Below are positions 9,093 through 60,467 of a stretch of 64,000 bases of DNA, in pieces; the first letter of the stretch is position 1; every line of letters begins with the position of its first letter. The notes beneath the pieces are model-generated. The model saw only the letters and a program-made list of their open reading frames with translations, had not been told where the DNA came from and did no database searches. The position numbers and the translations under genes were made by a program. The DNA comes from a virus, in the IMG/VR virus record IMGVR_UViG_3300020215_000052, positions 1 through 64,000 of that record. The stretch is one strand, 5' to 3'.

Positions 9093-9419
9093 GTGACTGC
9101 CGCCCAGGTGACCGAAGCCGTAGATCGTGGTATGTCTGGAGCCCCATGCCGCGGGGTTCCCATGTCCAAGACCGGCCGGAAGCCAGCCCACCCACAACCG
9201 CAGCCCCTGGACCCCGTTACAGGTCTGCCGCGGGCCACCCTGCATCAAGCCATCGAGATGGCAACAGCTCTCATCGAGCAGAAGATGGCGCTGGAAGCCC
9301 TCAAGACCACCGGATGGAATGTCTCACGCGCCGCCGAGTTGCTCGGCATCTCAAGGCGCAGCCTCCAGCTTCTCATGAAGCGCCACGGGATCAAGAAAAC
9401 CGGGTCCGTGGCCGAGTAG
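9093..9419 (+). CDS. Fis-type HTH DNA-binding protein
   Basis: A 108-residue protein. GTG 9093 is chosen because AGGAGGT lies 8 nt upstream; internal ATGs lack such a signal. The C-terminal 38 residues (ALEALKTTGWNVSRAAELLG, ISRRSLQLLMKRHGI) are a clear Fis-family helix-turn-helix, the fold that forms the DNA-binding end of NtrC-like sigma-54 activators. No AAA+ activator domain is present. The gene lies directly upstream of a sigma-54-like promoter at 9623 with inverted repeats between. It may bind those repeats as a local activator or repressor. Confidence 0.75.
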   Translation: MTAAQVTEAVDRGMSGAPCRGVPMSKTGRKPAHPQPQPLDPVTGLPRATLHQAIEMATALIEQKMALEALKTTGWNVSRAAELLGISRRSLQLLMKRHGIKKTGSVAE

Positions 9420-9510
9420 TACTGCATAAACACCTTCGCACCGCGCAAAGTGCTACGCGGCGCGGTTACACCAACGAAATCAGTAGTTTACGGTATTTTC
9501 CGCTTCCGCT

Positions 9511-9530
9511 GTGCGTAGGATATTACGCAC
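9511..9530. promoter_or_regulatory. Inverted repeat upstream of 9623 promoter
   Basis: GTGCGTA, 6 bp, TACGCAC (perfect 7-bp arms), about 110 bp upstream of the -24 element. A near-palindrome with the same TGCGTA half-site (9604-9619, 14 of 16 symmetric) abuts the promoter. Placement suits activator-binding sites. Confidence 0.5.
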
Positions 9531-9622
9531 ATTGCCGCACAGAATCGTCGCTCTCCAAAGCGATCCCCCATAATTACCCAGTGTTTTCCAATGCTTACAT
9601 AATGCGTAAACGTTAACGCGCC

Positions 9623-9645
9623 TGGCACGTCCCATGCTTCTATAT
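9623..9645 (+). promoter_or_regulatory. Sigma-54-like promoter A
   Basis: TGGCACG (9623-9629), N4, ATGCTTCTATAT (9634-9645). This keeps the GG-N10-GC spacing of -24/-12 promoters; no -35 box is present. The predicted start is near CATGAG (9650), followed by a small hairpin with ACGGA loop (9660-9672). An equivalent element with identical spacing occurs at 59800. Confidence 0.5.
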
Positions 9646-9694
9646 AGGCCATGAGCGGACGGCACGGAGCCGCCGACGAACTGAAGGAACCAAG

Positions 9695-9919
9695 ATGACC
9701 ACCGACATCAAGAGCGCCCTCGGATCCCTGGTCGCCAAGCTCAACAACATCAACGCCACCGTGGACTACCTGAAGTCCCGCGCGATGATGGGGGACCTCA
9801 GGACCACGGAGGCCCACGCAAGCAGCCTGGCCGACATGGTGCGCCAGGCTGCTGAATTGGCCGACCAGATGGCCGGCCTGGCCGGCGGGGCGCGGCGAGA
9901 AACAAAACGCGCAGCCTGA
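9695..9919 (+). CDS. Small helical protein
   Basis: A 74-residue protein preceded by GAAGGAACC. It is an all-helical sequence (SALGSLVAKLNNINATVDYLKS, ADMVRQAAELADQMAGLAGG) without Cys or membrane segments. It is the first gene behind sigma-54-like promoter A and so is likely the regulated product. Function unknown. Confidence 0.55.
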   Translation: MTTDIKSALGSLVAKLNNINATVDYLKSRAMMGDLRTTEAHASSLADMVRQAAELADQMAGLAGGARRETKRAA

Positions 9920-9993
9920 GGCTGGCGGTCCCTTCGCTCCACTCCGAACGGGGAGCCCGTCCTTACTACGAGCTGTTTGATGAGAGGACGACC

Positions 9994-10293
9994 ATGATGC
10001 AGCTTCTTCGGTCAATCACCCAGGCTGACCGTGCCCTCGTCGTTGCCCATCTGGCAGCCCACGAGGCACTCCGGGAGCTCCGCCGGCTGGAGTTGGCCAT
10101 CGCGGCCGACCCGCTGGCGGTGGAGCAGTACTACGCCGCCCTGGAGTCGTGGCGGGCCGAGGCCGGGTCGGTCCACAGGGCGGAGAAGGAGGCCTCCCGG
10201 CTCCGGGAGGAACTCGCTGAAGCCCTCCGTGAGTCCCGGTACTACCGGGCCGAGGCCTGGACGGATTTCGCGTTCTCCGCGGAGGCAGCATGA
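9994..10293 (+). CDS. Coiled-coil hypothetical protein
   Basis: A 99-residue protein starting ATGATG behind GAGAGGACG. Nearly all helical and charged (AHLAAHEALRELRRLELAI, VHRAEKEASRLREELAEAL). It overlaps the next gene by ATGA. No family recognised. Confidence 0.55.
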   Translation: MMQLLRSITQADRALVVAHLAAHEALRELRRLELAIAADPLAVEQYYAALESWRAEAGSVHRAEKEASRLREELAEALRESRYYRAEAWTDFAFSAEAA

Positions 10294-10604
10294 CCAGGGC
10301 ATGGACCCTCTCCGAGGTGGAGGCACTCCAAGGTCACGAGATGGTCCATCGCATAGGCCTCTCGGAGGCCATGCAGTTGGAGTTGATTCGCCTGGTCGAG
10401 GTCGGCTACCGCCACCAGCCTCGGTATGGCGTCCTCCGCCTGACCCAGGCGGCCCTCCAGAAGCGGGGCCTCGCCGTCTGGGAGGACGGGGTGTGGCGGC
10501 CCACCGACGTGGGGCACGCTGTCGCCGCCAGGATGCCGGATCCGCGGGTCCCGCGCTGGAGCGGGGCCGGGAGGACACCGAAGATCGACCCCTTTGAGGG
10601 GTAG
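10290..10604 (+). CDS. Hypothetical protein, possible winged helix
   Basis: A 104-residue protein coupled to the upstream gene by an ATGA overlap. Residues 25-75 (MQLELIRLVEVGYRHQPRYG, LRLTQAALQKRGLAVWEDG, RPTDVGHAVAA) read like a winged-helix unit of the kind with a T-x-x-G-x-x-V/A ending. DNA binding is inference. It ends 13 bp before the long inverted repeat at 10618. Confidence 0.55.
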   Translation: MTRAWTLSEVEALQGHEMVHRIGLSEAMQLELIRLVEVGYRHQPRYGVLRLTQAALQKRGLAVWEDGVWRPTDVGHAVAARMPDPRVPRWSGAGRTPKIDPFEG

Positions 10605-10617
10605 GGATCCTCAGCCA

Positions 10618-10702
10618 GAAACGGCCCCCCGGTCCGGCATAGGAGACCGGAGGGTCCTGGAGCATGGTTCGACCCGGCGCCAGAAGGCCGGGGGGCCGTT
10701 TC
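10618..10702. repeat. Long inverted repeat (15-bp perfect arms)
   Basis: GAAACGGCCCCCCGG (10618-10632) and its exact reverse complement (10688-10702) enclose 55 bp. An inner TCCGG...CCGGA hairpin lies between them. It may act as a transcription terminator after the 10604 gene. The right arm is part of the direct repeat at 10683. Confidence 0.65.
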
Positions 10703-10712
10703 GGGTTGAGGG
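10683..10712 (+). repeat. 30-bp direct repeat, left copy
   Basis: Identical over 30 bp to 11630-11659 (begins GAAGGCCGGGGGG, ends GGGTTGAGGG), and the next bases (T)GCCTCG also match. The two copies bracket the pentapeptide gene. Confidence 0.8.
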
Positions 10713-10846
10713 TGCCTCGCTCGCACAGCGCCTGGGCCTGGCCGCCTGAACACCACGCCGAGTCCATCAGGGCCCGGCCCTATCCTCCGCCCCATGGCGA
10801 TGACGTCGTGGGGCGAGGGATGGGACCCAGACAGATGGAGGTGGAC

Positions 10847-11476
10847 ATGGACGCGATCAACCTGGCGGCAGCGATGGCGGCGCACAAGGAGTGGCTGGAG
10901 AGCGGTGGGGATCGGGGCCAACGCGCCGACCTCAGCGGCGCCGTCCTCAGCGGCGCCGACCTCAGCGGCGCCGACCTCAGCGGCGCCGACCTCAGCGGCG
11001 CCGTCCTCAGCGGCGCCGACCTCAGCGGCGCCGACCTCAGCGGCGCCGACCTCAGCGGCGCCGACCTCAGCGGCGCCGACCTCAGCGGCGCCGACCTCAG
11101 CGGCGCCGACCTCAGCGGCGCCGACCTCAGTCCGATCCGGGCCGATCTCCGATCTGTGCTGGACGTCGTTCCGTTGGAGGTGCCGGCACTGCGGGCGGCT
11201 ATTGTCGAGGGGCGTGTCGACGGCTCGGTCTATCAGGGCTCGTGTGCGTGCCTCGTGGGCACGATCGCCAACGCCAGGGGCTGCGACTTCGGGAGCATCC
11301 CGGGCCTGGTGCCGTCCGCCCATCGGCCCGCCGAGCGCTGGTTCCTGGCTATCCGCCCCGGCGACACCCCGGAGCGGAGCCAGATCGCCGCGATCACGCT
11401 CCAGTGGGTCGACGAGTGGCTCGCGGAGCATTCAGCCCCGGCCGAGCCCTCCGCCCAGACTGAGTCCCAGACCTGA
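10847..11476 (+). CDS. Pentapeptide-repeat protein
   Basis: A 209-residue protein. ATG 10847 is supported by GGAGGT just upstream. A helical cap ([17 protein letters not shown]) leads into 14 pentapeptides, 12 ADLSG-type and 2 AVLSG, forming a right-handed quadrilateral beta helix. A C-terminal domain of about 100 residues ([31 protein letters not shown]-type, [13 protein letters not shown]) is shared with other phage pentapeptide proteins. Some family members mimic DNA or bind gyrase; the role here is unknown. The repeat DNA is almost perfectly uniform, indicating recent expansion. Confidence 0.8.
10927..11131 (+). repeat. 15-bp tandem repeat in pentapeptide gene
   Basis: About 13.6 nearly identical units of GACCTCAGCGGCGCC; the only variation is GAC to GTC in two units. 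Copy number is expected to vary between isolates. Confidence 0.85.
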
Positions 11477-11572
11477 GACCACCCCCGGCGGGCCCAACCC
11501 CGGAGCCCGCCCTCTGTCCCCTCCCCGCCGCCGAGGTGGTCGGGAGCGGAGAGAGTCACCGGAGGATCACTG

Positions 11573-11656
11573 ATGGACTTCCAGCCCCACTACCTCGCCT
11601 ACGCCCGTGGCCAGGGTCGCACCCCCGAGGAAGGCCGGGGGGCCGTTTCGGGTTGA
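11573..11656 (+). pseudogene. Truncated small phage gene
   Basis: ATG 11573 follows GGAGGATC. The N-terminus MDFQPHYLAYARGQGRTPEE looks like the beginning of a common short phage protein. After 20 residues the frame enters the 30-bp direct repeat and stops at 11656, giving only 27 residues. The gene appears to have been cut by recombination at the repeat. Confidence 0.4.
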
Positions 11657-11659
11657 GGG
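11630..11659 (+). repeat. 30-bp direct repeat, right copy
   Basis: Exact copy of 10683-10712. It fuses to and terminates the truncated 11573 reading frame. A weaker relative (CCGGGTTGACCCCGGTGCC) occurs near 13542. Confidence 0.8.
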
Positions 11660-11751
11660 GCCTCGGATCCCTGATCACATCGCTTCACGAGGCTCCCAGG
11701 CTTCCCGCCTGCCGGGGCAAGCCTCCAACGCAGGGCGGGAGGGAGTTCCCC

Positions 11752-12156
11752 ATGATCAACCTCACCGCCAACACCGTAACCGTCCGCCTGCCCGACGGCG
11801 GAGCGATCACGTTCCCGCCATCAGGAAGGGTTCTCACCCTGGAGGAGATCTCCGGGGAGCCCACCACGGTGGAGACGCCCCTGGGGGTCGTGCCCGTGGT
11901 TCCGCTGCGGGGCTACGGGAGGCTCGTGGGGGAGATCCCGGACCCGGATGCCACCGTGTTGGTGGTGGCCTTCCCGCCCCTCATCACCGCTCTGCGTGCG
12001 GCCGGACACCGGGGGCGGATCTTCGCCCCCGGCCTGGCAAAAAGGGGGGCCGATGGGTCCATGTTCGTGGAGGCACTCCGGGAGCACGACCCGGAGGGGA
12101 CGCTCTCGGCCCAGGAGGCGGAACTGCGCCGCCTCATGGCCAACGCCATCTGCTGA
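11752..12156 (+). CDS. Hypothetical phage protein, beta-rich
   Basis: A 134-residue protein. ATG 11752 is chosen for GGGAGG upstream. The start MINLTANTVTVRLPDGGAIT is typical of a small phage protein group with an initial beta hairpin. The centre (EIPDPDATVLVVAFPPLITALRA) looks like a Rossmann-like strand and helix. Function unknown. A strong hairpin terminator follows 3 bp after the stop. Confidence 0.65.
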   Translation: MINLTANTVTVRLPDGGAITFPPSGRVLTLEEISGEPTTVETPLGVVPVVPLRGYGRLVGEIPDPDATVLVVAFPPLITALRAAGHRGRIFAPGLAKRGADGSMFVEALREHDPEGTLSAQEAELRRLMANAIC

Positions 12157-12159
12157 GCA

Positions 12160-12195
12160 GGAGACTGCCCGTCTCATCGAAGACGGGCAGTCTCC
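12160..12195 (+). terminator. Hairpin terminator
   Basis: Perfect 15-bp stem GGAGACTGCCCGTCT / AGACGGGCAGTCTCC with a 6-nt loop, followed by TTGGTTGG. It sits directly after the 12156 stop and may work in both directions. Confidence 0.75.
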
Positions 12196-12282
12196 TTGGT
12201 TGGAGTCGCCAGCCTCCCGATGCTGGCCTGCGATGGGCCTTCCCGCCGGCCCACGCTTTTCTCAAGCGGGATGAGGTTGCCC

Positions 12283-13551
12283 ATGGCACGCACCGACTTC
12301 GAGTCCCTCGTGGCCCTCCGTTCTCGGCTTCCGGCTGGTCCATCGTCCCCCGCACCTTCGTCCGCTGCCCCAAGCGCGCCGGAGAAACTCCCCTGGGATC
12401 CCAGCTTCCCAGGCCGCAGCCCTGCCAGTACCAGGGAGCAGGAGGAAAAGGAGCGGCATATTGGCCGGCTCCGTGATGTTACCCAGGCCGTGGCCGAGTC
12501 CTACCAGGCTGGGATCGCGAACTGGGACCGCCTGCTTGAATGCGCATACGAGTTCGCTGGCGTCCCCCGTTATCCGGGGGTGGGCTACGACGCGGAACAG
12601 GTCCTTGAGGATGGGTACCGGCTTGCGGCAGGCCGGACCGTGAGGGGTTGGGAGAAGGGCCATGGGCCCTTGGGTGAGGCGCCACCTGCGGGCTGGGAGT
12701 CGCTATCGGTAGCGGTGCTCTTTCAGTACGTCCGGCGGCACGATGGGCGCGAGGAGGCCCGGCGCAGGGCCGGGGCTTCGGCCCAGGATGCCGTCATCAT
12801 CTCAGGGACCTGCCTCAGGTGGGGGACACCAGAGGTGGTCGCCCTCACTGGGAGCGGCGACGTGGTGACCGTGGAGACCTCCAGTCTCTCCGTCTCTGAG
12901 GAACGGCTCAAGGAGGGGGTGCTGGTCTCTCTTCCGCCCTTCCCCTCGCCCGGGGGGTGGTGGGAGGCGGCTCCCCACGACGACAAGTCCTACCGGGCTC
13001 TCCGCCTGGTCCAGGAGGCCCCGCGGGGCCTCCTGGACGTAACCGACGCCCTCCCTCTATGGGGGAGGCACGAGAAGGAGGGCTGGGGCAGGTTCCTGCT
13101 CACGGCCTATCGCGGCCATACGGCCGTGGGGGCCGACGAGGCGCTTTGGCCTCTTCTGGACGCTCTTTCCAGGCTCCAGCGGGAGGGGATCCTGCCAGAG
13201 GGGGCTGGCTGGATCCGGGGATCTGCCCGGATCACCAGCAACGGTAAGCTCCACATCTCTAGCCACCCGGCATCCTCCCCGGTGGTCCTTGTCCATGTAG
13301 GGGGCCACGAGTCCAGCCGAGGCAGGTGGGGCCGGTCCGGCTACTGCCCCACCGTCAAGCAAGGGTGTTCGGCGGCCAGGGCCGAGGTCTTCTCTTCATC
13401 ACGGGGTGGAGGGCAGGCGGGCGCTGCGGTTCTGGCAGCCGTTTCTGAGGGACGACCGCTCCTTCTCACAGACGGGGTTGGGTACGCTCTCCGGGGGAGA
13501 ACCGTGGAGAGGGTTCCGGGACTGGCGGCAGGGACCCCGATTCCGGGTTGA
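12283..13551 (+). CDS. Large hypothetical protein
   Basis: About 422 residues from ATG 12283; an ATG at 12271 is possible and neither has a strong ribosome-binding site. A disordered Pro/Ser/Ala segment (25-65) precedes a helical region with EQEEKERHIGRLRDVTQAVAE. A large mixed domain follows, with WRGTPEVVALTG-like strands, and near the end GHESSRGRWGRSGYCPTVK. No catalytic motif was recognised. First gene after the 12160 terminator. Its length and position suggest a phage-specific enzyme or DNA-handling protein, but no function can be claimed. Confidence 0.6.
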   Translation: MARTDFESLVALRSRLPAGPSSPAPSSAAPSAPEKLPWDPSFPGRSPASTREQEEKERHIGRLRDVTQAVAESYQAGIANWDRLLECAYEFAGVPRYPGVGYDAEQVLEDGYRLAAGRTVRGWEKGHGPLGEAPPAGWESLSVAVLFQYVRRHDGREEARRRAGASAQDAVIISGTCLRWGTPEVVALTGSGDVVTVETSSLSVSEERLKEGVLVSLPPFPSPGGWWEAAPHDDKSYRALRLVQEAPRGLLDVTDALPLWGRHEKEGWGRFLLTAYRGHTAVGADEALWPLLDALSRLQREGILPEGAGWIRGSARITSNGKLHISSHPASSPVVLVHVGGHESSRGRWGRSGYCPTVKQGCSAARAEVFSSSRGGGQAGAAVLAAVSEGRPLLLTDGVGYALRGRTVERVPGLAAGTPIPG

Positions 13552-13566
13552 CCCCGGTGCCTCGCT

Positions 13567-13595
13567 CCTGCTCGCGGGCTTCACCGGCGAGCAGG
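13567..13595. terminator. Possible hairpin terminator
   Basis: CCTGCTCGC / GCGAGCAGG, perfect 9-bp arms with an 11-nt loop, in the 126-bp gap after the 13551 stop. There is no T-run. A relative of the 10683 repeat lies just upstream. Confidence 0.35.
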
Positions 13596-13677
13596 CTCGG
13601 TTGCATCGGGGCGGGCCACGGTGGCGGGGCTGGATCGGTCATCGCATGCCCGGACGGGCCGGGCGGGGAGTGGGAGA

Positions 13678-14010: not shown

Positions 14011-14189
14011 GCACCCCCGTCAATCTCAGGCACTGCCAGGCCTGCGGGACGACCGTGGCCCCCAGGTACTGGCGGGTCCACGTAGCCTCACCGACCCACG
14101 CGGCTCGGGAGGCGGCACTCCGCGCCGAACAGGCCGCGCTCCGGGATCTCAGCGCGCGGCTCCGCGCCCGGAAGCGGGAGCGCTCGTGA
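14007..14189 (+). CDS. C2H2-like zinc-finger small protein
   Basis: A 60-residue protein coupled by ATGA to the gene before and by GTGA to the gene after. The N-terminal half has C-x2-C ... H-x6-H (CQACG ... VHVASPTH), a zinc-finger layout. The C-terminal half is a basic helix (LRDLSARLRARKRERS-like). Nucleic-acid binding is plausible. Confidence 0.6.
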   Translation: MSTPVNLRHCQACGTTVAPRYWRVHVASPTHAAREAALRAEQAALRDLSARLRARKRERS

Positions 14190-15874: not shown

Positions 15875-15916
15875 TGCGTGGTGCTGGCTGCCCTGCGGGG
15901 CGGAGGTTACCTGTAC

Positions 15917-26720: not shown

Positions 26721-26798
26721 GTGAGGACGGTAGGGTGTCTCTGGAGGCTCACAAGGGCGGGGCGGGAAGCCCTGCGAGCGCTGAAGGGGGGTGTGTGA
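26721..26798 (+). CDS. Possible 25-residue ORF
   Basis: GTG 26721 to TGA 26798, ending RLTRAGREALRALKGGV, a pattern typical of winged-helix C-termini. Probably the tail of a gene broken upstream rather than a functional peptide. Its stop overlaps the ATPase ATG. Confidence 0.25.
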   Translation: MRTVGCLWRLTRAGREALRALKGGV

Positions 26799-27703
26799 TG
26801 CGCATGGGAGAGGCGAGACGTGATGTGGTGCCGAATGGCGAGGCGAAGCTCTTCCACGAGGTCCGACCTCGGCGGGGGTTCGGCGACCTCTTGCTTCCAC
26901 CGCTCGTTCAGCGGGCCTGCTCCGAACTGGTGGAAGAACACAACCGAGTGGACCTCCTGCGTGCCCATAACCTCGAGCCACGTAACCGCGTCCTCCTCGT
27001 CGGCCCACCGGGCAACGGAAAGACGTCGCTCGCAGAGGCGCTCGCACAAGAGCTTGGAAACCCGATGCTCGTGGTGCGGTACGAAAGCATCATCGGCAGT
27101 TATCTCGGTGAGACCGCTGTACGGCTCGCCAAGCTCTTTGCCCACGCCCGGACCCAGCGCTGCGTGCTCTTCTTCGACGAGTTCGACGTCATCGGCAAGG
27201 AGCGCGGCGACATCCACGAGACCGGCGAAATCAAGCGGGTCGTCAACTCGCTGCTGCTGCAGGTCGATCAGCTTCCGTCACACGTCGTCGTCGTAACCGC
27301 GACCAACCACAGCGAACTCCTCGACCGTGCCGTGTGGCGCCGCTTTCAGCTCCGGCTGGACTTGCCAGCTCCGGGAAAGGTACAGCGCATTGCGTGGCTG
27401 GAGATGTTCGAGAAGCGAAGCAGGCTCCAACTCGGCTGCACCCACGACCACCTCGCGCGCCGATTGGCTGGCCTGAGCTTTGCGGAGCTCGAGCAGTTCG
27501 CCCAGGACGTCCAACGTCGCTGCGTGCTCACCATGCCAGGTGCGGACATTAGGAGCATCATCGGAGACCGGCTGAGGCAGTGGACGAGCCGCGCCGCACC
27601 TACACCTACCTCGCCCGGGGACGAAGATACTGATCCGCCGTTGCTGATCCAGCCGGAACCCGGCACGGGGCCTGGAGGCATAAAAGGGCCCCGGCCGCCG
27701 TGA
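26798..27703 (+). CDS. AAA+ ATPase (CDC48/SpoVK-like)
   Basis: 301 residues from ATG 26798. Walker A GPPGNGKT (69-76), Walker B CVLFFDEFD (122-130), sensor-1 TATN (167-170) and arginine finger in WRRF (180-183). The region FGDLLLPPLVQRACSELVEE before Walker A matches single-domain bacterial AAA ATPases that are often paired with a protease, commonly subtilase. No S8 protease is beside it here; an SDH/ClpP-like protease lies far away at 62 kb. No GAFTGA loop, so it is not a sigma-54 activator. Probably an unfoldase or remodeller. Confidence 0.85.
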   Translation: MRMGEARRDVVPNGEAKLFHEVRPRRGFGDLLLPPLVQRACSELVEEHNRVDLLRAHNLEPRNRVLLVGPPGNGKTSLAEALAQELGNPMLVVRYESIIGSYLGETAVRLAKLFAHARTQRCVLFFDEFDVIGKERGDIHETGEIKRVVNSLLLQVDQLPSHVVVVTATNHSELLDRAVWRRFQLRLDLPAPGKVQRIAWLEMFEKRSRLQLGCTHDHLARRLAGLSFAELEQFAQDVQRRCVLTMPGADIRSIIGDRLRQWTSRAAPTPTSPGDEDTDPPLLIQPEPGTGPGGIKGPRPP

Positions 27704-29343: not shown

Positions 29344-30759
29344 GTGGGCAGCGAGCCATTGGCCATCGAGGACCTTCTGCCGGACCCTCGCAACCCGAGG
29401 CGTATCTCTGACCCAGCGCTGGAGGGACTCCAAGCCAGCCTCCGTGCGTTCGGCGATGTTTCCTTGTGCTGGAATCGTCGCACCGGGGAGATGGTCTCGG
29501 GCCACCAGCGGCTCGCCGCGCTCAAGGCGGAAGCCAAGCGCCGAGGCAGTGCCCTCGCCATCCACGAGCGCGGAGACGAGCGCGCCGACATCGTGCTGCC
29601 CGCCGGCAATGGGATGCCTGAGGAGCGGTTCAACCTGCGGATCGTAGACTGGGACAGGGCGACGCAGACGGCCGCCAACCTGGCGGCGAACAACCCCGGC
29701 ATCTCGGGCGAGTTCACGCCGGACGTTGGCGCGCTGCTGGAAGAGGTGGAGGCGTCGTTCCCGGAGTTGTACGACGATTTGAAGCTGGCGGAGATCCTCG
29801 AAGAGTTGGGGGAGGAGACCTCGACCGAGAGCAAGCCCGAGGCGGGAGAGGGACCGGAAGCGCAAGTGGACCGGGCTGCGGAGCTTGCCGAGGCATGGGG
29901 AACGGCGCGTGGGCAGGTGTGGGAGGCGGGGCGGCATCGCGTGATGTGTGGGGACTGCCGAGATCCCGATGACGTGGCGCGCCTCCTCGATGGGCGCAAG
30001 GTCAACGTGGCGTTCACGTCGCCGCCCTACGCATCACAGCGCAAGTACGACGAGGAAAGCGGGTTCAAGCCCATCCACCCCGATGCCTATGTGGACTGGT
30101 TCGAGGCGGTGCAGGCGAACGTCCGCGGCGTGCTCGCTGACGATGGCTCCTGGTTCGTCAACATCAAGGAGCATTGCGACGACGGCCAGCGCCACCTCTA
30201 CGTCAAGGATCTGACCATCGCGCACGTTCGGCGGTGGGGATGGCGGTTCGTGGATGAACTGGTCTGGGTCCACAACGGACTGCCCGGTGCTTGGGATAAC
30301 CGATTCAAAAACCAGTGGGAGCCCGTCTTCCACTTCTCGGGCGGGAGGGCCATCAAGTTCAGCCCGAGGACGGTTGCAAACGCTTCTGAAGTTGCATTTA
30401 AGTACAAGGGCAAGTTGAAGGCCAGCGCGACAGGCAACCCGATCTCCTGGTCCGGATCAGACGTCGACCGAACGGAGGGCATCGCGCTCCCGGGGAACGC
30501 TCTGCAACTGGGCAAGTCGCGGGAGCAGAATGCGCATGAGGCGGTCTTCCCCGTCGGTCTACCCTCCTTCTTCATCCGCGCCTACTCCGACCCCGGCGAC
30601 TTCATCTTCGATCCCTTCCTCGGGAGCGGCACGACCGTCGTAGCCGCCGAGCAGGAAGGGCGCGTCGGGATGGGGATGGAGTTGTCGCCCAAATACCTTG
30701 GCGTCATTCTGGAGAGGCTGTCTCAGATGGGCCTCACCCCGCGCAAGGTGGAGGGCTGA
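29344..30759 (+). CDS. ParB-domain DNA methyltransferase
   Basis: 471 residues, GTG start with GGAGGG 5 nt upstream. Residues 1-110 are a ParB/Srx-like domain (LLPDPRNPRRISDPALEGLQ, VSGHQRLAALKAEAK). Residues 190-471 are a beta-class methyltransferase with motif IV TSPPYAS (225-231) and motif I DPFLGSGTTVVAAE near the C-terminus. SPPY favours N4-cytosine, though N6-adenine is possible. This fusion is common next to phage terminase genes. Its stop overlaps the small terminase ATG by one base. Confidence 0.85.
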   Translation: MGSEPLAIEDLLPDPRNPRRISDPALEGLQASLRAFGDVSLCWNRRTGEMVSGHQRLAALKAEAKRRGSALAIHERGDERADIVLPAGNGMPEERFNLRIVDWDRATQTAANLAANNPGISGEFTPDVGALLEEVEASFPELYDDLKLAEILEELGEETSTESKPEAGEGPEAQVDRAAELAEAWGTARGQVWEAGRHRVMCGDCRDPDDVARLLDGRKVNVAFTSPPYASQRKYDEESGFKPIHPDAYVDWFEAVQANVRGVLADDGSWFVNIKEHCDDGQRHLYVKDLTIAHVRRWGWRFVDELVWVHNGLPGAWDNRFKNQWEPVFHFSGGRAIKFSPRTVANASEVAFKYKGKLKASATGNPISWSGSDVDRTEGIALPGNALQLGKSREQNAHEAVFPVGLPSFFIRAYSDPGDFIFDPFLGSGTTVVAAEQEGRVGMGMELSPKYLGVILERLSQMGLTPRKVEG

Positions 30760-31331
30760 TGGGCCGCCCGACCGACTGCACACCGGAGTTCATCGACGCC
30801 GTGTGCGCGGAGATCCGCAAGAACGGGACGCCCCTCAACATTGCGGCCGAGGCTCTGGGGGTCAGCAGAACCACGATCTATCAGTGGAGGACACGAGGGG
30901 CAGCGGGAGAAGAGCCTTTCCGAACGTTCCGAAACGCTATTGAAGCAGCCATTCCAGAGGGGCGCCGCGCCCTCCTGGAGGAGATCCGCCAGGCGGGCAA
31001 GGGTGGGGCAAAGCGGGTCAGGGTGACGGTAAAAAAAGAGGTCAAGCGCGGGCCCGACAAGCGGCCGGTGCTGGGCCCCGATGGAAAGCCCGAGATGATC
31101 GAGGTGGAGCGGACCGAGGTAGTCGAGACCCTGGAGCCCCAATGGGCCGCGAACGCCTGGATCGCGGAGCGGACGTGTCCCGAGGAGTTTGGGCGGCGGG
31201 AGAGGATCGAGCACTCAGGCCCCGATGGTGGACCCATTGAGACGAAGACGCGGATCGACCTGAGCGGGCTGAGCGAACAGGAGCTGGACATCCTTGAACG
31301 GCTTGCAGCACGGAGCCATCGAGATCCCTAG
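30759..31331 (+). CDS. terS: Terminase small subunit
   Basis: 190 residues. The N-terminal helix-turn-helix (CTPEFIDAVCAEIRKNGTPL, NIAAEALGVSRTTIYQW) is the DNA-recognition part. The rest is helical, with a beta insert VRVTVKKEVKRG...EVERTEVVETLEPQW. The C-terminus LSGLSEQELDILERLAA probably contacts the large subunit. Position directly before the large terminase supports the call. It recognises the packaging site. Confidence 0.85.
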   Translation: MGRPTDCTPEFIDAVCAEIRKNGTPLNIAAEALGVSRTTIYQWRTRGAAGEEPFRTFRNAIEAAIPEGRRALLEEIRQAGKGGAKRVRVTVKKEVKRGPDKRPVLGPDGKPEMIEVERTEVVETLEPQWAANAWIAERTCPEEFGRRERIEHSGPDGGPIETKTRIDLSGLSEQELDILERLAARSHRDP

Positions 31332-53939: not shown

Positions 53940-54647
53940 ATGAACGGTCGGATTGTGCTCCTTGCCTCGTTCCTTGTAGCTTCGGCCTGCTCGGTGCTAG
54001 GCAATGACAACGAACCTGCGCAGCGAGACGCAGACGGAGACGGCTACGAGGAAGGTGTAGACTGTGACGACGGGGACCCGCTGGCCTGGACTGAGGACGA
54101 GGCCGAGGTCTGCGACCTCGGGGACAACGACTGCGACGGGGCGACGGACGAGGGGTTCGAGACTCAGGGCTACTTCCCCGACGCGGACGGTGACGGCTAC
54201 GTCACCGGGTTCGACGAGTCGGTGACGATCACAGCCTGTATGGAGCCGGAGGGCTACAGTCCGTGGGTGTCTCCGATTCCCCAGGGACTCATCACCGACT
54301 GCGACGACTCCGAGGCGAGCGTGTACCCGGGGGCAGCGGAGGCCTGCAACCACAGGGACGACGACTGCGACGGGGCGACGGACGAGGGGGCCCCGACGTT
54401 GCTCTATTGCGCTGACTATAACGGCGATGGGCAGGTATGCAGTCCCTGTCTGGCGGTGTGCTCACAAGCTGAGCTGCCAAGCGATTGTTCCGATAGCTCC
54501 TCTTGGGAGTGTCAGGGACTTCTATCGCAGTGCTTCACCTGGGTCCCGATCGACGGACAGCCGGATGAGAACTGTTGCGATGCAGACACCGACTGTGACG
54601 GAAGCTCGGACAGCATTGAAAACCAGTGCAAGGTATCGGAGGGCTGA
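53940..54647 (+). CDS. MopE-like metal-binding lipoprotein
   Basis: 235 residues; ATG 53940 follows AGGAGGTGG. LLASFLVASAC is a lipobox with Cys17. The mature part carries repeats of the putative metal-binding (MopE-type) family: DADGDGY (30-36, 81-87), DCDDGDP, DNDCDGATDEG (62-72) and DDDCDGATDEG (140-150), which bind calcium or copper. Such repeats are common in Myxococcota and Bdellovibrionota lipoproteins and unusual in phages. Could be a lysogenic-conversion or superinfection factor. A host-derived origin is likely. Confidence 0.75.
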   Translation: MNGRIVLLASFLVASACSVLGNDNEPAQRDADGDGYEEGVDCDDGDPLAWTEDEAEVCDLGDNDCDGATDEGFETQGYFPDADGDGYVTGFDESVTITACMEPEGYSPWVSPIPQGLITDCDDSEASVYPGAAEACNHRDDDCDGATDEGAPTLLYCADYNGDGQVCSPCLAVCSQAELPSDCSDSSSWECQGLLSQCFTWVPIDGQPDENCCDADTDCDGSSDSIENQCKVSEG

Positions 54648-55339: not shown

Positions 55340-55345
55340 GCCGAC

Positions 55346-55804: not shown

Positions 55805-55948
55805 GCCAGGAGCCCCCCTGGCTGTCCGCCCCCACTGTCACCGCATGTCCGATCCTCCTCTCAGAGTATCCATGACCCCGGGAAAGCATCCAGTAGACCG
55901 CCGATGTTCGGACATCCCCGTGTCCAACCGGGTCGAAGCGCTGGCCCC

Positions 55949-55977
55949 TTGCCATGGGATTGCGCCTGCGCTATAGT
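55949..55977 (+). promoter_or_regulatory. Sigma-70 promoter of the 55995 HTH gene
   Basis: TTGCCA (55949-55954), 17 bp, TATAGT (55972-55977). Predicted start near 55984, so the leader is only about 11 nt and begins at the GGAGGT site. Confidence 0.6.
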
Positions 55978-55994
55978 CAGGAAGGGAGGTAGGT

Positions 55995-56234
55995 ATGCAA
56001 CGGCCCATCGCAGAGCAGATACGGCTTCGCAGGGAAGATCTGGGCCTCACCCAAGCCGAGGCCGGCCGGCGCGCTGGTGTCGCCCAGAGCTGGTGGGCCC
56101 AGTGGGAGGGCGCCGAGCCAGCAAAGGGCGCCCGCACGCCCAGCGCCGAGCGCATGCCAGCGATCGCGGAAGCCCTGCGAGCGCGGTGGGTGAGCTCGGC
56201 CGAGGGGTGGTCCCTGGAGCCCCTTGAAAAATAA
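55995..56234 (+). CDS. XRE-type regulator (paralogue 1)
   Basis: 79 residues, GGGAGGT before the ATG. Helix-turn-helix over 6-60 (IRLRREDLGLTQAEAGRRAG, VAQSWWAQWEGAE), ending RARWVSSAEGWSLEPL. The C-terminal signature RW-x4-GW-x-L-x-P is shared with the genes at 58419 and 58775. It lies just before the 56256 promoter with its palindromic operator and is the prime candidate to bind it. Confidence 0.75.
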   Translation: MQRPIAEQIRLRREDLGLTQAEAGRRAGVAQSWWAQWEGAEPAKGARTPSAERMPAIAEALRARWVSSAEGWSLEPLEK

Positions 56235-56255
56235 TTACGCACACGTTATTTGCCC

Positions 56256-56284
56256 TTGACTATATAGCGCTGGCGCTATATATT
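56256..56284 (+). promoter_or_regulatory. Sigma-70 promoter with 22-bp palindromic operator
   Basis: TTGACT (56256-56261), 17 bp, TATATT (56279-56284). TATATAGCGC-TG-GCGCTATATA (56261-56282) has perfect 10-bp arms and fills the whole promoter, so bound repressor would block polymerase. TACGCAC (56236-56242) lies upstream. Confidence 0.8.
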
Positions 56285-56294
56285 ACTCTCATAA

Positions 56295-56315
56295 GGCTGG
56301 CGATGGACGCCAGCC
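56295..56315 (+). other. 5-prime leader hairpin
   Basis: GGCTGGCG-ATGGA-CGCCAGCC, 8-bp perfect stem, starting about 4 nt after the predicted start site (CATAAG). Same loop as the hairpin at 59835. Confidence 0.6.
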
Positions 56316-56333
56316 ACCCAATCGGAGCAGCAA

Positions 56334-56564
56334 ATGACCTACTTCCTCAACTACCACCAGGCAAGCAAAACGTTGACCCTTTCGAAGGTCAACGCCGGAG
56401 ACGGCACCCTGGTGCGCGGTGACAACATCCGGGAAGCCTACAGTCGCATGGTGGAGATCGCCGCGATGCAGGACTTGGCGGCCAACGTCGGTGACGACGT
56501 ACTCGAGGAGGCGGTGGCGGCCGGCCTCATCGAGCCCGAAGCCCCGCACGTAGCCCAGAGGTAG
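56334..56564 (+). CDS. Small hypothetical protein
   Basis: 76 residues; GGAGCAG before ATG 56334. Contains YFLNYHQASKTLTLSKVNAG, then an amphipathic helix NIREAYSRMVEIAAMQDLAA and an acidic C-terminus. First gene under the operator-controlled promoter, so likely expressed early or on induction. Role unknown. Confidence 0.6.
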   Translation: MTYFLNYHQASKTLTLSKVNAGDGTLVRGDNIREAYSRMVEIAAMQDLAANVGDDVLEEAVAAGLIEPEAPHVAQR

Positions 56565-56568
56565 TAGC

Positions 56569-56688
56569 ATGCCGAACCAAGCTACTGCAGATCGCAGGGC
56601 CCGCCGTAGGAGGCAGACCCTCAGGCGGCGGAACCCGACGCTTGGCACCATTTTTCTGGGCTCGGGGGAAGAGATTCCCTCCGTGTAG
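56569..56688 (+). CDS. Very small Arg-rich protein
   Basis: 39 residues, AGAGGTAG before ATG 56569, 4 bp after the previous stop. The sequence RRARRRRQTLRRRNP is strongly basic, suggesting RNA or DNA contact. Small size leaves room for doubt. Confidence 0.4.
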   Translation: MPNQATADRRARRRRQTLRRRNPTLGTIFLGSGEEIPSV

Positions 56689-56766
56689 CTGTCAGGATCC
56701 AGGGTCCTGCGGTGCAACCAGAGGATAGGGGCCGCCATGCTGGCGGCTCCTGATCTGGAGCACCGC

Positions 56767-57306
56767 ATGGACTACACCGACCCTGCCACCTGGAGCCGCC
56801 TTGACGATCTCCTCCGCTCCCTCCCCCGCCTGGATCCGAGGCCTCCAGCCCTCCGAGAGATCGTGGGCCTCGCGGCCGGCCTTCTCAGCCCCGGCAGAGC
56901 CGCCGAGGTCCGGGCATGGACGATCACCGTCCCAGCCCTCAGGGCCGCCGTGGCGGCCCTGACCGAGCCCGCCCCCGAGGTCTGCCGGGCCGTGCTCGCG
57001 GCGCTTGGCCGAGACGCGCCGCCGCCCCTCTCGGAAGAGGAGGCCCAGGAGATCCTCGTCGAGATTCGGGAGGAGGAACTGCTTGGGGAGGAGGCGATCG
57101 GGGCGCCGGCCCCCACCCTGGACGAGCTGCAGCGGTATGCCGCCCTTGACCTGGACCCGAGCCGGGTCGCCGAGGTCGAGCGGTGGATGGCCCTCGACCC
57201 TGGCCTGGCCCCGCTCGTGGACGCGATCCGGCACCCGGACGAGCACCTACGGGGAGTCGGGGTCCTGGTAATCGAGGTGGTCACCTGGCTGCGGGAAAGG
57301 TGTTGA
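56767..57306 (+). CDS. Acidic helical protein, anti-sigma-like composition
   Basis: 179 residues from ATG 56767 (GGAGCACC upstream). Mostly helical and acidic: IVGLAAGLLSPGRAAEVRAW, TLDELQRYAALDLDPSRVAE, VERWMALDPGLAPLVDAIR. The segment YAALDLDPSRVAEVERWMALDP, with its D-x-x-R/L layout, resembles the helical N-terminal domain of anti-sigma factors. This is a resemblance, not an assignment. A hairpin (GCCGCCA/TGGCGGC) lies just upstream. Confidence 0.55.
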   Translation: MDYTDPATWSRLDDLLRSLPRLDPRPPALREIVGLAAGLLSPGRAAEVRAWTITVPALRAAVAALTEPAPEVCRAVLAALGRDAPPPLSEEEAQEILVEIREEELLGEEAIGAPAPTLDELQRYAALDLDPSRVAEVERWMALDPGLAPLVDAIRHPDEHLRGVGVLVIEVVTWLRERC

Positions 57307-57330
57307 CACCCCTCCCGGGTCTGTTGTAGC
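57303..57330 (+). promoter_or_regulatory. Promoter with consensus -35
   Basis: TTGACA (57303-57308), 16 bp, TGTAGC (57325-57330). It is followed by the perfect palindrome GCTCGGCCGAGC (57339-57350) and an AAGGGAGGT site at about 57376, with no clear gene behind it before the 57473 hairpin. Confidence 0.45.
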
Positions 57331-57336
57331 GTTGTC

Positions 57337-57505
57337 GTGCTCGGCCGAGCCGACGCATCTCCCAAGGGCGCTAGAAGGGAGGTGGTCGCATTCCGTGCCT
57401 CTCAGCCCGGGGAGGCGCGGCCCCATTGAAGCAGCGTATAGGGCAGGATGCTGCCCTCGACCGAGCGCACGTCCCCGGCATCCCTCAAGGGTGCCGGGGC
57501 TTCGT
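57337..57505 (+). ncRNA. Candidate short transcript without clear ORF
   Basis: Bounded by the 57303 promoter and the 57473 hairpin, about 170 nt. A strong ribosome-binding site is present but only a 15-codon frame (GTG 57382) or a low-quality 55-codon frame (GTG 57394) follows. It could be a small regulatory RNA or a leader peptide. The 330-bp stretch 57307-57637 holds no other gene. Confidence 0.3.
57473..57499 (+). terminator. Strong hairpin terminator
   Basis: CCCCGGCATCCCT / AGGGTGCCGGGG with one bulge and a CA loop, followed by CTTCGTGTTTC. Separates the 57303 transcript from the next promoter. Confidence 0.65.
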
Positions 57506-57555
57506 GTTTCTGGACCCGCCCATCAGAAAATATATCTTGCCGTATATTTTTCCTC

Positions 57556-57584
57556 TTGACCAAATTCCCGCTACGATATATATT
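57556..57584 (+). promoter_or_regulatory. Sigma-70 promoter of the 57638 gene
   Basis: TTGACC (57556-57561), 17 bp, TATATT (57579-57584). Upstream is the inverted repeat AAAATATA-N8-TATATTTT (57527-57550). The start near CATGAA (57591) leads into the hairpin GCTGCG-GTGGT-CGCAGC (57597-57613). Confidence 0.75.
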
Positions 57585-57637
57585 ATATCCATGAACGCTG
57601 CGGTGGTCGCAGCGAGACCTGCCACATGGGGGAAAAC

Positions 57638-58375
57638 ATGCATCACAATTACGAGGCGACTCTCACGCTCCGATGCTCTGCGGCGCCGGCCGGGCTGGCC
57701 AGCATTCTGGAGCCAACGCACGACGTGCGGTGGCTCTCCAAGACCACGGTTTGCGACCGGTTCACCCTGCGGGGGGTTCCGGCCAAACAGATCTACGTCC
57801 TCGCGGAGCAGGCGGTCGACCTTTCGGTGCAAGGTGACTTGTGTGTTGAGATCGGGCGGAAGCTTGGTCGTTATGATAGAGAGGAGACGTCCGTCCTCAC
57901 GATCCGCAGGTTCCGGGCAGGGATGCCAGCCCCCGGGGGGACGGCCACAATCCTTGCAACCGAGTCCGAGGTTCAGGTTGACCTCCAGGTGGTCGGCGGC
58001 GCATCCTGGCGGCGAGCTTTTCGCCGTCTCCGCTCCGACCTCAATGACTACAGCGCCGAGCGGCTGATCCTCTGGCACTTCTGGCGCTATTACACCCACC
58101 TCCTCCCCGAGTTGGAGGAGGTGCAGAAGTTCGCCGCAACCTGGACGATTCCTGGCGGCATGGGACTGGCTGAGGCCAACAGGTGCGCATCCCGGTGCCT
58201 GTACGACCTTAGCAGGGCACTGGGGTGGCGTAAGCTCACGCTGCGCGAGCGAGGGAAGCTCGGGTTCGATGAAGACGCTGCCCAGTGGCAGCGCATCTCC
58301 GAGTGCGAACGCCGGTACTCCGTTACCCTCTGCGGAGAGGCGACGACGTGCTCCTCCTACGGCATGGACGAGTGA
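57638..58375 (+). CDS. Hypothetical protein
   Basis: 245 residues. ATG 57638 follows GGGGGA; ATG 57626 is in frame but lacks a site. N-terminal beta region (YEATLTLRCSAAPAGLASIL, CDRFTLRGVPAKQIYVLAEQ), a middle QVDLQVVGGASWRRAFRRLR, and a helical C-terminus (RLILWHFWRYYTHLLPELEE). No motif recognised. It has its own regulated promoter, so it is probably an important early or lysogenic product. Confidence 0.6.
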   Translation: MHHNYEATLTLRCSAAPAGLASILEPTHDVRWLSKTTVCDRFTLRGVPAKQIYVLAEQAVDLSVQGDLCVEIGRKLGRYDREETSVLTIRRFRAGMPAPGGTATILATESEVQVDLQVVGGASWRRAFRRLRSDLNDYSAERLILWHFWRYYTHLLPELEEVQKFAATWTIPGGMGLAEANRCASRCLYDLSRALGWRKLTLRERGKLGFDEDAAQWQRISECERRYSVTLCGEATTCSSYGMDE

Positions 58376-58418
58376 CTCCCGGTGCGGCCTCCCTGGCCCA
58401 CCGCAGAACGGGGGCCCC

Positions 58419-58772
58419 GTGAGCATCCCAGACCAGATTCGCTCCCGCCGCTTGGCCCTCGGGCTCACCCAGACCGAGGCAGCCGAGCGGGCCCGCACGT
58501 CCCAGAGTGCCTGGGCCCAGTACGAGAAAGGGGGTAAAACCCCAGACCTGGGGACCATGGAAAGAATCGCCTACGCCCTCGGGTCCAGGTGGGTACAGCG
58601 TGACGACGGTTGGGTCCTCGTGCCCGCCGAGGACCAGGCCCCCCTTTCTCCGTCTGAGTGGCGGCGGATTGTCGTGGAGGACGCTCTCCGAGGCGTCCCC
58701 TCCGCGATCGAGACGGGTCTTCGTCTCGGCTTTTTGCGCCGGGAGGGTGACCAGATAGTTCCGGTGGAGTAG
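58419..58772 (+). CDS. XRE-type regulator (paralogue 2)
   Basis: 117 residues from GTG 58419. Helix-turn-helix at 5-55 (IRSRRLALGLTQTEAAERAR, TSQSAWAQYEKGGKTPD), then SRWVQRDDGWVLVP, the signature shared with 55995 and 58775. A C-terminal extension of about 45 residues (LSPSEWRRIVVEDALRGVPS) is unique to this copy. Likely operator-binding regulator. Confidence 0.7.
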   Translation: MSIPDQIRSRRLALGLTQTEAAERARTSQSAWAQYEKGGKTPDLGTMERIAYALGSRWVQRDDGWVLVPAEDQAPLSPSEWRRIVVEDALRGVPSAIETGLRLGFLRREGDQIVPVE

Positions 58773-58774
58773 AC

Positions 58775-59455
58775 ATGGCGAGGTTGCGGGCCCTGGACTA
58801 CACCGAGGTTCAGGACTACTGGGACGAGCACCCCGATTCCAGCATCCCGGAGGTGGCCCGTGCCTTCGGCGTGGCCGTTAGCACGCTGAAGACGGCCAAG
58901 TACCGGGGACTGCTGAGCGACCCCCGGCCGGACCCCGGCAGATCGCACACCGGGCCCACCGGCACCTGGAAGATGGTCTGGGACCACGACGACCGCTTCC
59001 CAGGTCAGGATGCCGCGCACGTGGCGCAACTCCTTCGGCTCCGTCCCGGGACCGTCATTTCCGCGAGGAAGGCGGCGCGCAGGCGAGCGGCCCCGGCTGC
59101 GCCAGCGGCGGCAGCGGCGCCACGGACCGGCGTGGCGGAGGCCATCCGGAAGGCCCGTACCCGCGCATCCCAGGAGATAGCCTCGGCTGCGGCCAGGGCC
59201 GAGGTCTCGGAGCAGACCTGGGCTGCATGGGAGGCGGGGGTCCGGGAACCGACGCCCCTTGAGATGCTCGCCATCGCCCGGGCGCTGGGTTGCCGCTGGA
59301 TCGGTGACCCGGACCGGGGCTGGATGCTCGTCCCCCTATCTGGCACGCCGCGTGCCTCTGAGGTAGCGGAGGTGCAACATGGGACGGAAGAAGGGGCTGT
59401 GGGGGATGCAGGAAGGTCGGCTCCAGGACGCGTTCGTGGCGTTGGCGCGGGCTGA
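58775..59455 (+). CDS. XRE-type regulator (paralogue 3) with extra HTH
   Basis: 226 residues, ATG 3 bp after the previous stop. N-terminal HTH-like part (LDYTEVQDYWDEHPDSSIPE, VARAFGVAVSTLKTAK), an Ala/Arg linker, then an XRE domain near 120-175 (IRKARTRASQEIASAAARAE, VSEQTWAAWEAGVREPTPLE) with CRWIGDPDRGWMLVP. The last 25 residues overlap the Fis-type gene and look like low-quality read-through. Confidence 0.65.
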   Translation: MARLRALDYTEVQDYWDEHPDSSIPEVARAFGVAVSTLKTAKYRGLLSDPRPDPGRSHTGPTGTWKMVWDHDDRFPGQDAAHVAQLLRLRPGTVISARKAARRRAAPAAPAAAAAPRTGVAEAIRKARTRASQEIASAAARAEVSEQTWAAWEAGVREPTPLEMLAIARALGCRWIGDPDRGWMLVPLSGTPRASEVAEVQHGTEEGAVGDAGRSAPGRVRGVGAG

Positions 59456-59630
59456 AATCCGCGCCGCCCTGGAGGAAACCCGCGGCAATCGGCAGCGTGC
59501 GGCCCACCTTCTGGGGGTGGACCGCCGTACCCTCTACGGATATCTCGACCGGCTCTTCACGCCGGAAGAGGTGGAGTCTCTCGGACCTGGGGATATTCTC
59601 CCCAGTAACGAGTCCAGAGAAACCGCCTAA
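59379..59630 (+). CDS. Fis-type HTH DNA-binding protein (second)
   Basis: 83 residues, GGAGGT before ATG 59379. Residues 15-55 (LQDAFVALARAEIRAALEET, RGNRQRAAHLLGVDRRTLYG, YLDRLF) are a Fis-type helix-turn-helix, as at 9093. No AAA+ domain. It lies directly upstream of sigma-54-like promoter B. Its 3-prime end contains GGGGATATTCTCCCC (59589-59603), whose 13-bp core recurs inverted at 59697-59709, possible binding sites. Confidence 0.75.
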   Translation: MGRKKGLWGMQEGRLQDAFVALARAEIRAALEETRGNRQRAAHLLGVDRRTLYGYLDRLFTPEEVESLGPGDILPSNESRETA

Positions 59631-59709
59631 ATCCACCGCTTCTACGCACACTTAGACCACGCTGTAGATATTCGCCTCACCATGGGTCACCTTGACGGGG
59701 AGAATATCC
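59589..59709. repeat. Paired inverted 13-bp motif near second Fis-type gene
   Basis: GGATATTCTCCCC (59591-59603) and its exact reverse complement (59697-59709), with a weaker GATATTCGCC at 59667-59676. They lie 90-210 bp before the -24 element, as activator sites would. Confidence 0.55.
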
Positions 59710-59760
59710 ACACACATGCCTGCCAGATGTGGTCTGCCTACTTAACCAAAACTCAACGAT

Positions 59761-59788
59761 TTCATGCACATACATGAGTGTGCATGAA
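59761..59788. promoter_or_regulatory. Perfect inverted repeat adjoining promoter B
   Basis: TTCATGCACA-N8-TGTGCATGAA, perfect 10-bp arms, ending 11 bp before TGGCACG. Likely regulator site. Confidence 0.55.
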
Positions 59789-59799
59789 TATACACACAG

Positions 59800-59822
59800 T
59801 GGCACGCTGTGTGCTTCTATAT
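59800..59822 (+). promoter_or_regulatory. Sigma-54-like promoter B
   Basis: TGGCACG (59800-59806), N4, GTGCTTCTATAT (59811-59822), identical in spacing to the 9623 element. TGGCACG is also the spacer of a CACACAG/CTGTGTG inverted repeat (59793-59813). The start near CATGAA (59827) is followed by hairpin GCGGCG-ATGGA-CGCCGC (59835-59851). Confidence 0.5.
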
Positions 59823-59867
59823 CTATCATGAAGAGCGGCGATGGACGCCGCCGTGAAGGAGAGGCTC

Positions 59868-60467
59868 ATGAGCACCAAGACCATCCGTGAGGTAGAGGCC
59901 ATCATCGAAGCCATCAAAACCGGCATCCAGGCCGGAGGAGACCCCGAGGACTGGGAGGCGGGCGAGTTCGAGGAGGCCCGCTCCCTAACCGCTGCTGTCG
60001 GGTGGCAGTGGGAGTTCACCACATGGCTCGCTACCCTCAGGGTTCTGGAGGGGGGCGACATCCCCGGCGCCGGGCGGCGCTGGGATGAGGAGACGAATGC
60101 CGCCGAGCCGACCCCTGCCCAAAGGGATGCCTTGGCGCGGCACGATTCCCTCGTCGCGAGGGCGAGGGAACTTGACGAGGCCCGGGCCTCCCTGGGCCCA
60201 GACGCGGCGGAGGAGGAGGATGAGCGTCTGCGGCTCGCCGCCGTTGAGGCGTGGGCTGAGGTTGCCCGGGATGCCGAGGCTTTGGAGGCGGCCGAGGCCG
60301 TCACACGGGCCATGGCCGTCACCCCGCCCGGACAGCCGGTGTGGGGAGGGGTTCGCGTCGGGCTGCGGCCCGACGATCCAATCCACGGAACCGTGGGTTT
60401 CCGTGGCATGCCCCGCGGGGCATGCGCGTGTCCGGCCTGTGTGGAGGCCGACTACCTGACTACCTGA
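59868..60467 (+). CDS. Hypothetical protein under promoter B
   Basis: 199 residues; ATG 59868 follows AAGGAGAGG (an ATG at 59841 lies inside the leader hairpin). Mostly helical and acidic (REVEAIIEAIKTGIQAGGDP, AEVARDAEALEAAEAVTRAM). The C-terminus has ACACPACVEADY, a small Cys cluster. A short hairpin (CTACCTG/CAGGTAG, 60460-60478) overlaps its stop. Function unknown. Confidence 0.6.
   Translation: MSTKTIREVEAIIEAIKTGIQAGGDPEDWEAGEFEEARSLTAAVGWQWEFTTWLATLRVLEGGDIPGAGRRWDEETNAAEPTPAQRDALARHDSLVARARELDEARASLGPDAAEEEDERLRLAAVEAWAEVARDAEALEAAEAVTRAMAVTPPGQPVWGGVRVGLRPDDPIHGTVGFRGMPRGACACPACVEADYLTT

Follow-up and report, generated by a model that had tools for sequence, protein, structure and literature searches.

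Candidate sigma-54 promoters downstream of two Fis-type genes in a probably temperate tailed phage

We analyzed a 64,000-nucleotide stretch of viral DNA (the window, a portion of the 68,012-base record IMGVR_UViG_3300020215_000052), in which a stand-alone gene for a Fis-type helix-turn-helix (HTH) protein is followed, at two loci, by an element of the -24/-12 type. From the sequence we consider it probable that both elements are promoters of the host sigma-54 factor (RpoN), that they head phage operons, and that they form the second step of a Fis-type relay that relies on a host AAA+ activator. In this relay, a sigma-70-type promoter would drive an upstream regulatory operon, the last gene of which encodes a Fis-type DNA-binding protein. 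The protein would bind dyads in the adjoining downstream gap and, once bound, would determine how strongly the next operon is transcribed from its sigma-54 promoter, with ATP-driven opening supplied by a host AAA+ enhancer-binding protein. On the sequence side, the proposal is backed by two classes of promoter that share a leader family, by the -24/-12 match, by the dyads and by the assignment of the genes to the Fis type. We infer the RpoN dependence, the continuity of the operons, the occupation of the dyads by the Fis-type proteins and the reading of gene order as time order.

Two modules of a Fis-type gene and a -24/-12 element

The first element (9623-9645, TGGCACG-N4-ATGCTTCTATAT) heads a gene run that includes RecT and DnaB, and the second (TGGCACG-N4-GTGCTTCTATAT) is located at 59800-59822; both are on the plus strand. 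Their common 23-bp form, TGGCACG-N4-RTGCTTCTATAT, has two exact copies in the window and no further site within three mismatches, against a chance expectation of 0.02, and none of 100 shuffled sequences gave two copies. The bare core TGGCAC-N6-TGC is not enriched (22 sites with one mismatch allowed, 20.4 expected), thus the signal resides in the extended element. The GG and GC dinucleotides are 10 bp apart in both copies within a TGGCACG-N4-TTGC-like context, the sigma-54 consensus being TGGCACG-N4-TTGC. Sigma-70-type scans of both regions found no site at either element and no -35 box.

When the 68-kb record was scanned with a weighted -24/-12 model, the two elements ranked at the top with 17.5 bits each, the best score in 15 first-order resamples being 16.5. 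Sites of at least 13 bits number seven in the record (3.2 expected from the 15 resamples), six of them inside the window. Four of these six are no more than 72 nt away from a start codon, namely the two elements and one weaker site before each Fis-type gene, with distances taken from gene calls that cover all but the last 4 kb of the record and with Fis-type gene 2 entered by hand, as the gene caller skipped it for its overlap with the open reading frame (ORF) at 58775-59455. The weaker sites, both on the plus strand, are CGGCACG-N4-GTGC at 9052-9066 (13.4 bits, 41 nt before gene 1) and TGGCACG-N4-GTGC at 59341-59355 (14.3 bits, 38 nt before gene 2). By direct reading, the latter forms part of a 15-bp palindrome, and it may alternatively be an operator.

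Fis-type gene 1 (9093-9419, 108 aa) and gene 2 (59379-59630, 83 aa) are both stand-alone genes on the plus strand that match the HTH_8 family (E 2e-12 and 3.5e-11, respectively). Their sequences suggest a DNA-binding domain like that of NtrC/ZraR-type activators and related proteins; profile searches found no AAA+ part in either protein, and PF00158, the AAA+ family of sigma-54 activators, had no match across the phage record. The ATPase would therefore have to come from the host. The model of gene 1 is a long helix with an HTH, predicted at low confidence (pLDDT 65). The gene 2 model has the same composition and, in a structure comparison that covered this model only, resembles Fis and NtrC-type domains with weak E-values (best E 0.035). 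The two proteins can be aligned over just 29 residues (14 of 29 identical), and the modules are therefore not the product of a recent duplication. Each Fis-type gene is the final one before the gap in a same-strand run that starts at a sigma-70-type promoter. Gene 2 is preceded by two HTH regulator genes on the plus strand, an Xre-type repressor-like gene (58269-58772) and a second gene (58775-59455) that overlaps its start.

The gaps between the Fis-type genes and the elements span 203 bp (50% GC) and 169 bp (48% GC) in a window of 68% GC. Gap 1 contains a perfect dyad of 8+8 bp, TGTGCGTA-N6-TACGCACA (9510-9531), centred at about -128 of the predicted start, and a near-palindrome, GCGTAAACGTTAACGC (9604-9619), directly upstream of the -24 box. 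In gap 2, a perfect dyad of 10+10 bp, TTCATGCACA-N8-TGTGCATGAA (59761-59788), is centred at about -51. The TACGCACA half-site occurs four times in the 64 kb against 0.57 expected: two copies are in gap 1, one is in gap 2 (59643-59650) and one is upstream of the sigma-70-type promoter at 56256 (56236-56243). All of these sites are given on the plus strand. The observed number of perfect 7-bp dyads was reached by 6.7% of resampled gaps for gap 1 and by 0 of 300 for gap 2.

The original prediction, made by reading the DNA, is borne out in its description of the modules: the order of Fis-type HTH gene, gap with inverted repeats, element, leader hairpin and gene is the same at both loci, the GG-N10-GC spacing is kept with no -35 box, and the HTH genes lack the AAA+ part.

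A common leader family and the pattern in other genomes

Three sigma-70-type promoters were identified on the plus strand by consensus scanning. TTGACT-N17-TATAGT (7749-7777) precedes the gene run that ends in Fis-type gene 1 and is followed by CATAAG and a hairpin leader, TTGACC-N17-TATATT (57556-57584) precedes the run that ends in gene 2, and TTGACT-N17-TATATT (56256-56284) has an internal palindrome and shares GGCGATGGACGCC in its leader with element 2. All three have CATRA and a GC-rich hairpin downstream, with the A as the seventh base after the -10 hexamer, and TATANT-N5-CATRA occurs at these promoters only on both strands of the window. The spacer of the 56256 promoter contains a perfect palindrome, TATAGCGCTGGCGCTATA, unique on the plus strand of the window, which was the strand searched; it is likely a repressor operator.

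Both elements have the same type of leader, which consists of CATGA with a GC hairpin at element 1 (9650-9694, plus strand) and CATGA with the hairpin GGCGATGGACGCC at element 2 (59827-59867, plus strand), the A being the fourteenth base after GC. The start predicted from the leader alignment alone is thus the 14th base past the -12 GC, where about 12 nt is expected for sigma-54. In the leader register, the -10 hexamer of the elements would be TCTATA, with three of six matches and no -35 box, whereas the three sigma-70-type promoters match at 10 of 12 positions. With the same leader and no sigma-70 hexamers in register, the elements appear to occupy the place of the promoter core and to belong to another class. 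Compared with shuffled sequences, the leader hairpins of the two elements are moderately stable (z -1.4 and -1.6) and that of the 56256 promoter is highly stable (z -3.15); of two other viruses with the element, L007 has a strong leader hairpin (z -3.1) and L003 has none (z -0.4). We also observed that GCAATCAAGCC is common to the leader hairpins after a -24/-12-like element in L007 (6286-6340) and in a further virus sequence, L038 (near 9706).

The 22-bp pattern TGGCACGNNNNRTGCTTCTATA was scanned in 84,980 genomes and yielded 13 loci, ten of which are located 50-115 nt before a same-strand ORF. Behind these ten are five glnII genes of Rhizobium/Agrobacterium, genes for PII, hsp20, a DNA methylase and a circularly permuted ATP-grasp protein, and one unassigned gene; Pfam confirmed one glnII, PII and hsp20, and the other four glnII genes were recognized by near-identical translation. 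The remaining three loci are off promoter position (the interior of a tRNA synthetase gene, the interior of a small ORF, and a site with no clear gene). In Sinorhizobium meliloti, glnII is reported to be RpoN-dependent (PMC3616915) and activated by NtrC (PMC10746234). Since the pattern retrieves genes of known RpoN control, the sigma-54 reading gains independent sequence support. RpoN is encoded in all 13 genomes with the pattern versus 4 of 14 control genomes, a count that is supporting only, because the control genomes were not matched to the others and five of those 13 are closely related.

Among viruses, a 21-bp pattern was found in five records (four independent), each time 28-83 nt before an ORF; a spacing control with one extra spacer base gave two viral records, both with sites within ORFs. 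Small ORFs of 83-129 aa extend over the site on one or the other strand in four of the five (L003, L004, L006, L007), and we read them as chance ORFs. A looser pattern, counted without a spacing control, occurs in at least 118 stretches and at least 72 lineages as defined by flank similarity, the clustering varying with the method (53 clusters for 80 of 118 loci, 53 with over-merging for 118 loci, 72 lineages by flanks). Among the matches listed, 43 of 72 lineages are clear of ORFs of at least 100 aa, versus 360 of 1500 random positions. The unspecified column is the T of the sigma-54 TTGC in 43 of 72 lineages and in 28 of 53 clusters, again among the matches listed, at an overall T frequency of 28%. 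As ORF-internal sites also show T (14 of 24), this column is supporting but not decisive. Among 80 of the at least 118 looser sites, 44 do not fall within a called ORF, and of those, 20 have a start codon and a ribosome-binding-like motif within 180 nt. Many of the looser viral sites are probably real sigma-54-type promoters by these sequence features, and some are chance matches.

Competing explanations

Several observations weigh against the proposed relay. The -12 motif of the phage elements begins with R (A or G) where the consensus has T, and an inverted repeat over element 2 (59793-59813) was flagged as terminator-like by a terminator scan. The dyads of the two gaps differ, as do their distances from the predicted starts. 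Two sigma-70-like matches, at 55949 (10/12) and 8701 (9/12), have no CATRA leader. The 13-mer GGCGATGGACGCC common to the leaders of the 56256 promoter and element 2 is weak evidence when taken alone, at least two matches being found in 6 of 100 shuffles. RpoN is also encoded in the three genomes with off-position loci, hence the RpoN count alone is not discriminating, and RpoN would be absent if the host were, e.g., an actinobacterium. Another virus (G004) has five TGGCAC-N5-RTGC sites in its 36-kb record (5996 and 6862 on the minus strand and 7107, 7365 and 12201 on the plus strand of L038), every one of them exactly 28 nt before an ATG, at which distance a sigma-54 start would nearly coincide with the start codon and leave almost no leader. 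These sites may be start-associated repeats or leaderless promoters, and the same record also contains three matches to the backwards control pattern.

Relatives with the same arrangement were not found. The terminase large subunit had no match among viral contigs, and in a survey of 55 records that bear the element, a search for HTH_8 revealed no case of a Fis-type gene paired with it. This survey comprised the five records with the element (0 of 5 with HTH_8, two being the same phage lineage) and 50 of the 113 further looser-element loci listed (2 of 50), many records being fragments. One of the two HTH_8 genes, terminase-small-subunit-like by reading, is about 11 kb from the element, and the other, of 122 aa, is about 117 kb off. 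Among 43 background records (40 of 80 helicase-related contigs, two spacing-control contigs and Myxococcus phage Mx4), no HTH_8 match passed the cut-off and two were weaker; TGGCACGNNNNRTGC is present in four of the 43 and its backwards control in one, and the Mx4 record has neither an HTH_8 match nor TGGCACGNNNNRTGC. A pattern search of viral contigs with Fis-type gene 1 gave 15 stretches with no relative among them, and gene 2 gave three loci with a 26-residue match inside a larger, unrelated-looking protein. Against annotated phages, gene 2 found nothing at E 1 and gene 1 found seven weak matches (E 0.03-0.8; three regions were inspected for annotation).

These searches bear on the possibility that the sigma-54 promoters are real but have nothing to do with the Fis-type genes, which could be, for instance, nucleoid or recombination helpers, with the adjacency being a by-product of operon ends. 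We regard this as rather doubtful. Stand-alone phage Fis-type proteins are on record with no stated sigma-54 link (best E 0.03), and HTH_8 is missing from 53 of the 55 records and distant in two, as would suit this explanation, but the order is seen twice, both gaps have dyads, -24/-12-like sites precede both genes, and the four start-proximal sites among the six of at least 13 bits in the window all belong to these modules. It is unlikely, in our estimation, that the Fis-type proteins act as split activators, i.e. that they recruit or heterodimerize with a host AAA+ activator and divert it to the phage dyads, thereby firing the promoters. The modelled long helix with HTH of both proteins, the weak resemblance of the gene 2 model to Fis and to the DNA-binding domains of NtrC-type proteins, the position of the gap-1 dyad at about -128, which falls within the usual enhancer range, and the lack of an AAA+ activator in the record all agree with such a role; the gap-2 dyad at about -51 is near for a classical enhancer, and no relatives with the pairing were present among those searched. 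A fuller version, a two-part enhancer system in which the Fis-type halves borrow the host AAA+ motor and the two operons are timed by host nitrogen or stress signals, seems decidedly unlikely.

That the element is the promoter of another sigma factor, a phage operator or, for copy 2, a terminator-like repeat that merely resembles a sigma-54 site is quite improbable. CTTCTATAT is common to both copies and goes beyond the sigma-54 consensus, and the core of copy 2 is inside the CACACAG...CTGTGTG inverted repeat that the scan lists as terminator-like. The poor in-register -10 with no -35, compared with the three well-matched phage promoters, and the presence of the same extended element before glnII, PII and hsp20 genes speak against it. 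In another virus (L248), an HTH_8 gene directly precedes a terminase-large-subunit-like gene (so labelled by reading), and the phage Fis-type genes might by analogy encode packaging proteins. This is extremely improbable, as the terminase subunits of the phage (30759-31331 and 31294-32772) are more than 20 kb from both genes. The identification of the Fis-type genes as terminase small subunits is contradicted by the gene content, in which 30759-31331 encodes that subunit.

Under the relay that we prefer, gating is slightly favoured over activation: the Fis-type protein would occupy or bend the enhancer/promoter region, and the operon would fire only with an active host activator. This preference follows from the inability of a DNA-binding domain on its own to open the sigma-54 complex and from the position of the gap-2 dyad at about -51. 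Activation by the Fis-type proteins is no more likely than repression. The interpretation in the original prediction is partly supported. Its reading of the elements as sigma-54 promoters gains support from the retrieval of RpoN-controlled genes and from the leader start close to the sigma-54 expectation, and it is plausible from the layout that the Fis-type proteins may bind the gaps and hijack host sigma-54 machinery. The search for the pairing in related phages, which the prediction had proposed as a check, lent it no support. Sigma-54-like elements are not rare in viral contigs under the looser pattern.

Gene context and significance

The record encodes terminase subunits, RecT, a DnaB-like helicase, a helicase loader, an integrase and a tape measure protein, and by this gene content the virus is a tailed phage, probably a temperate one. 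The first gene after promoter 1 (9695-9919, 74 aa) and the gene after promoter 2 (59868-60467, 199 aa, with an alternative ATG at 59841), both on the plus strand, have no family in profile searches. Elsewhere in the window are a Mom-like DNA modification gene (4586-5434), a stand-alone AAA ATPase (26798-27703, PF00004) among the replication-side genes that has no match to the sigma-54 activator family, and a ClpP/SDH-type serine protease-like protein (62069-63271) with a single annotated-phage match, in a Klebsiella phage. The protein encoded at 53940-54647 has MopE-type metal-binding motifs and no match in annotated phages; we take these motifs to hint at a host among the Myxococcota. Host placement by tblastn against phages failed with the terminase, the helicase and the ClpP-like protein (one record), and three further proteins had no match. 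Against 289 genomes of the class of Rhizobium, the terminase matched 11 at E 1e-60 (best identity 38%), which did not place the host.

The proposed arrangement can be compared with several known systems. The sigma-54 promoters of rhizobial glnII and of a PII gene share the 22-bp pattern, at 87-115 nt upstream of the gene; however, they serve nitrogen genes on the chromosome, for which a complete NtrC activator exists, whereas the phage has a stand-alone Fis-type gene next door. Enhancer-binding proteins of the NtrC/ZraR type share the C-terminal Fis-type DNA-binding domain with the phage proteins, which lack their AAA+ and receiver domains. E. coli Fis is similar in size and, for gene 2 only and with weak E-values, in its long helix and C-terminal HTH; the phage differs in having two diverged copies with a -24/-12-like promoter after each. 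Phage lambda Q and Mu Mor/C are encoded directly upstream of the target promoter of the next operon, as in the phage studied here, but they act on the sigma-70 polymerase, unlike the putative -24/-12-type promoters. In the literature searched, which left out most subscription papers, we found no report of sigma-54 promoters that head phage operons. Related cross-talk has been described: four Fels-2 prophage genes are reported to be lower in the wild type than in an rpoN deletion (PMC3844500), and Gifsy-1 prophage genes are reported to affect an RpoN-dependent operon (PMC9879122). The parts are known singly, and their combination is new.

RNA polymerase with sigma-54 stays inactive unless an ATP-driven activator opens the complex. 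A phage operon behind a sigma-54 promoter would therefore be tied to host physiology, unlike one behind a sigma-70 promoter. With -24/-12-like sites that lie away from long ORFs in at least 43 viral lineages, the question can be tested at scale. If the split enhancer system were true, sigma-54 promoters would constitute a general and so far overlooked level at which phages control their genes; if the relay proposed here is true, temperate phages would gain a stress or nitrogen gate.

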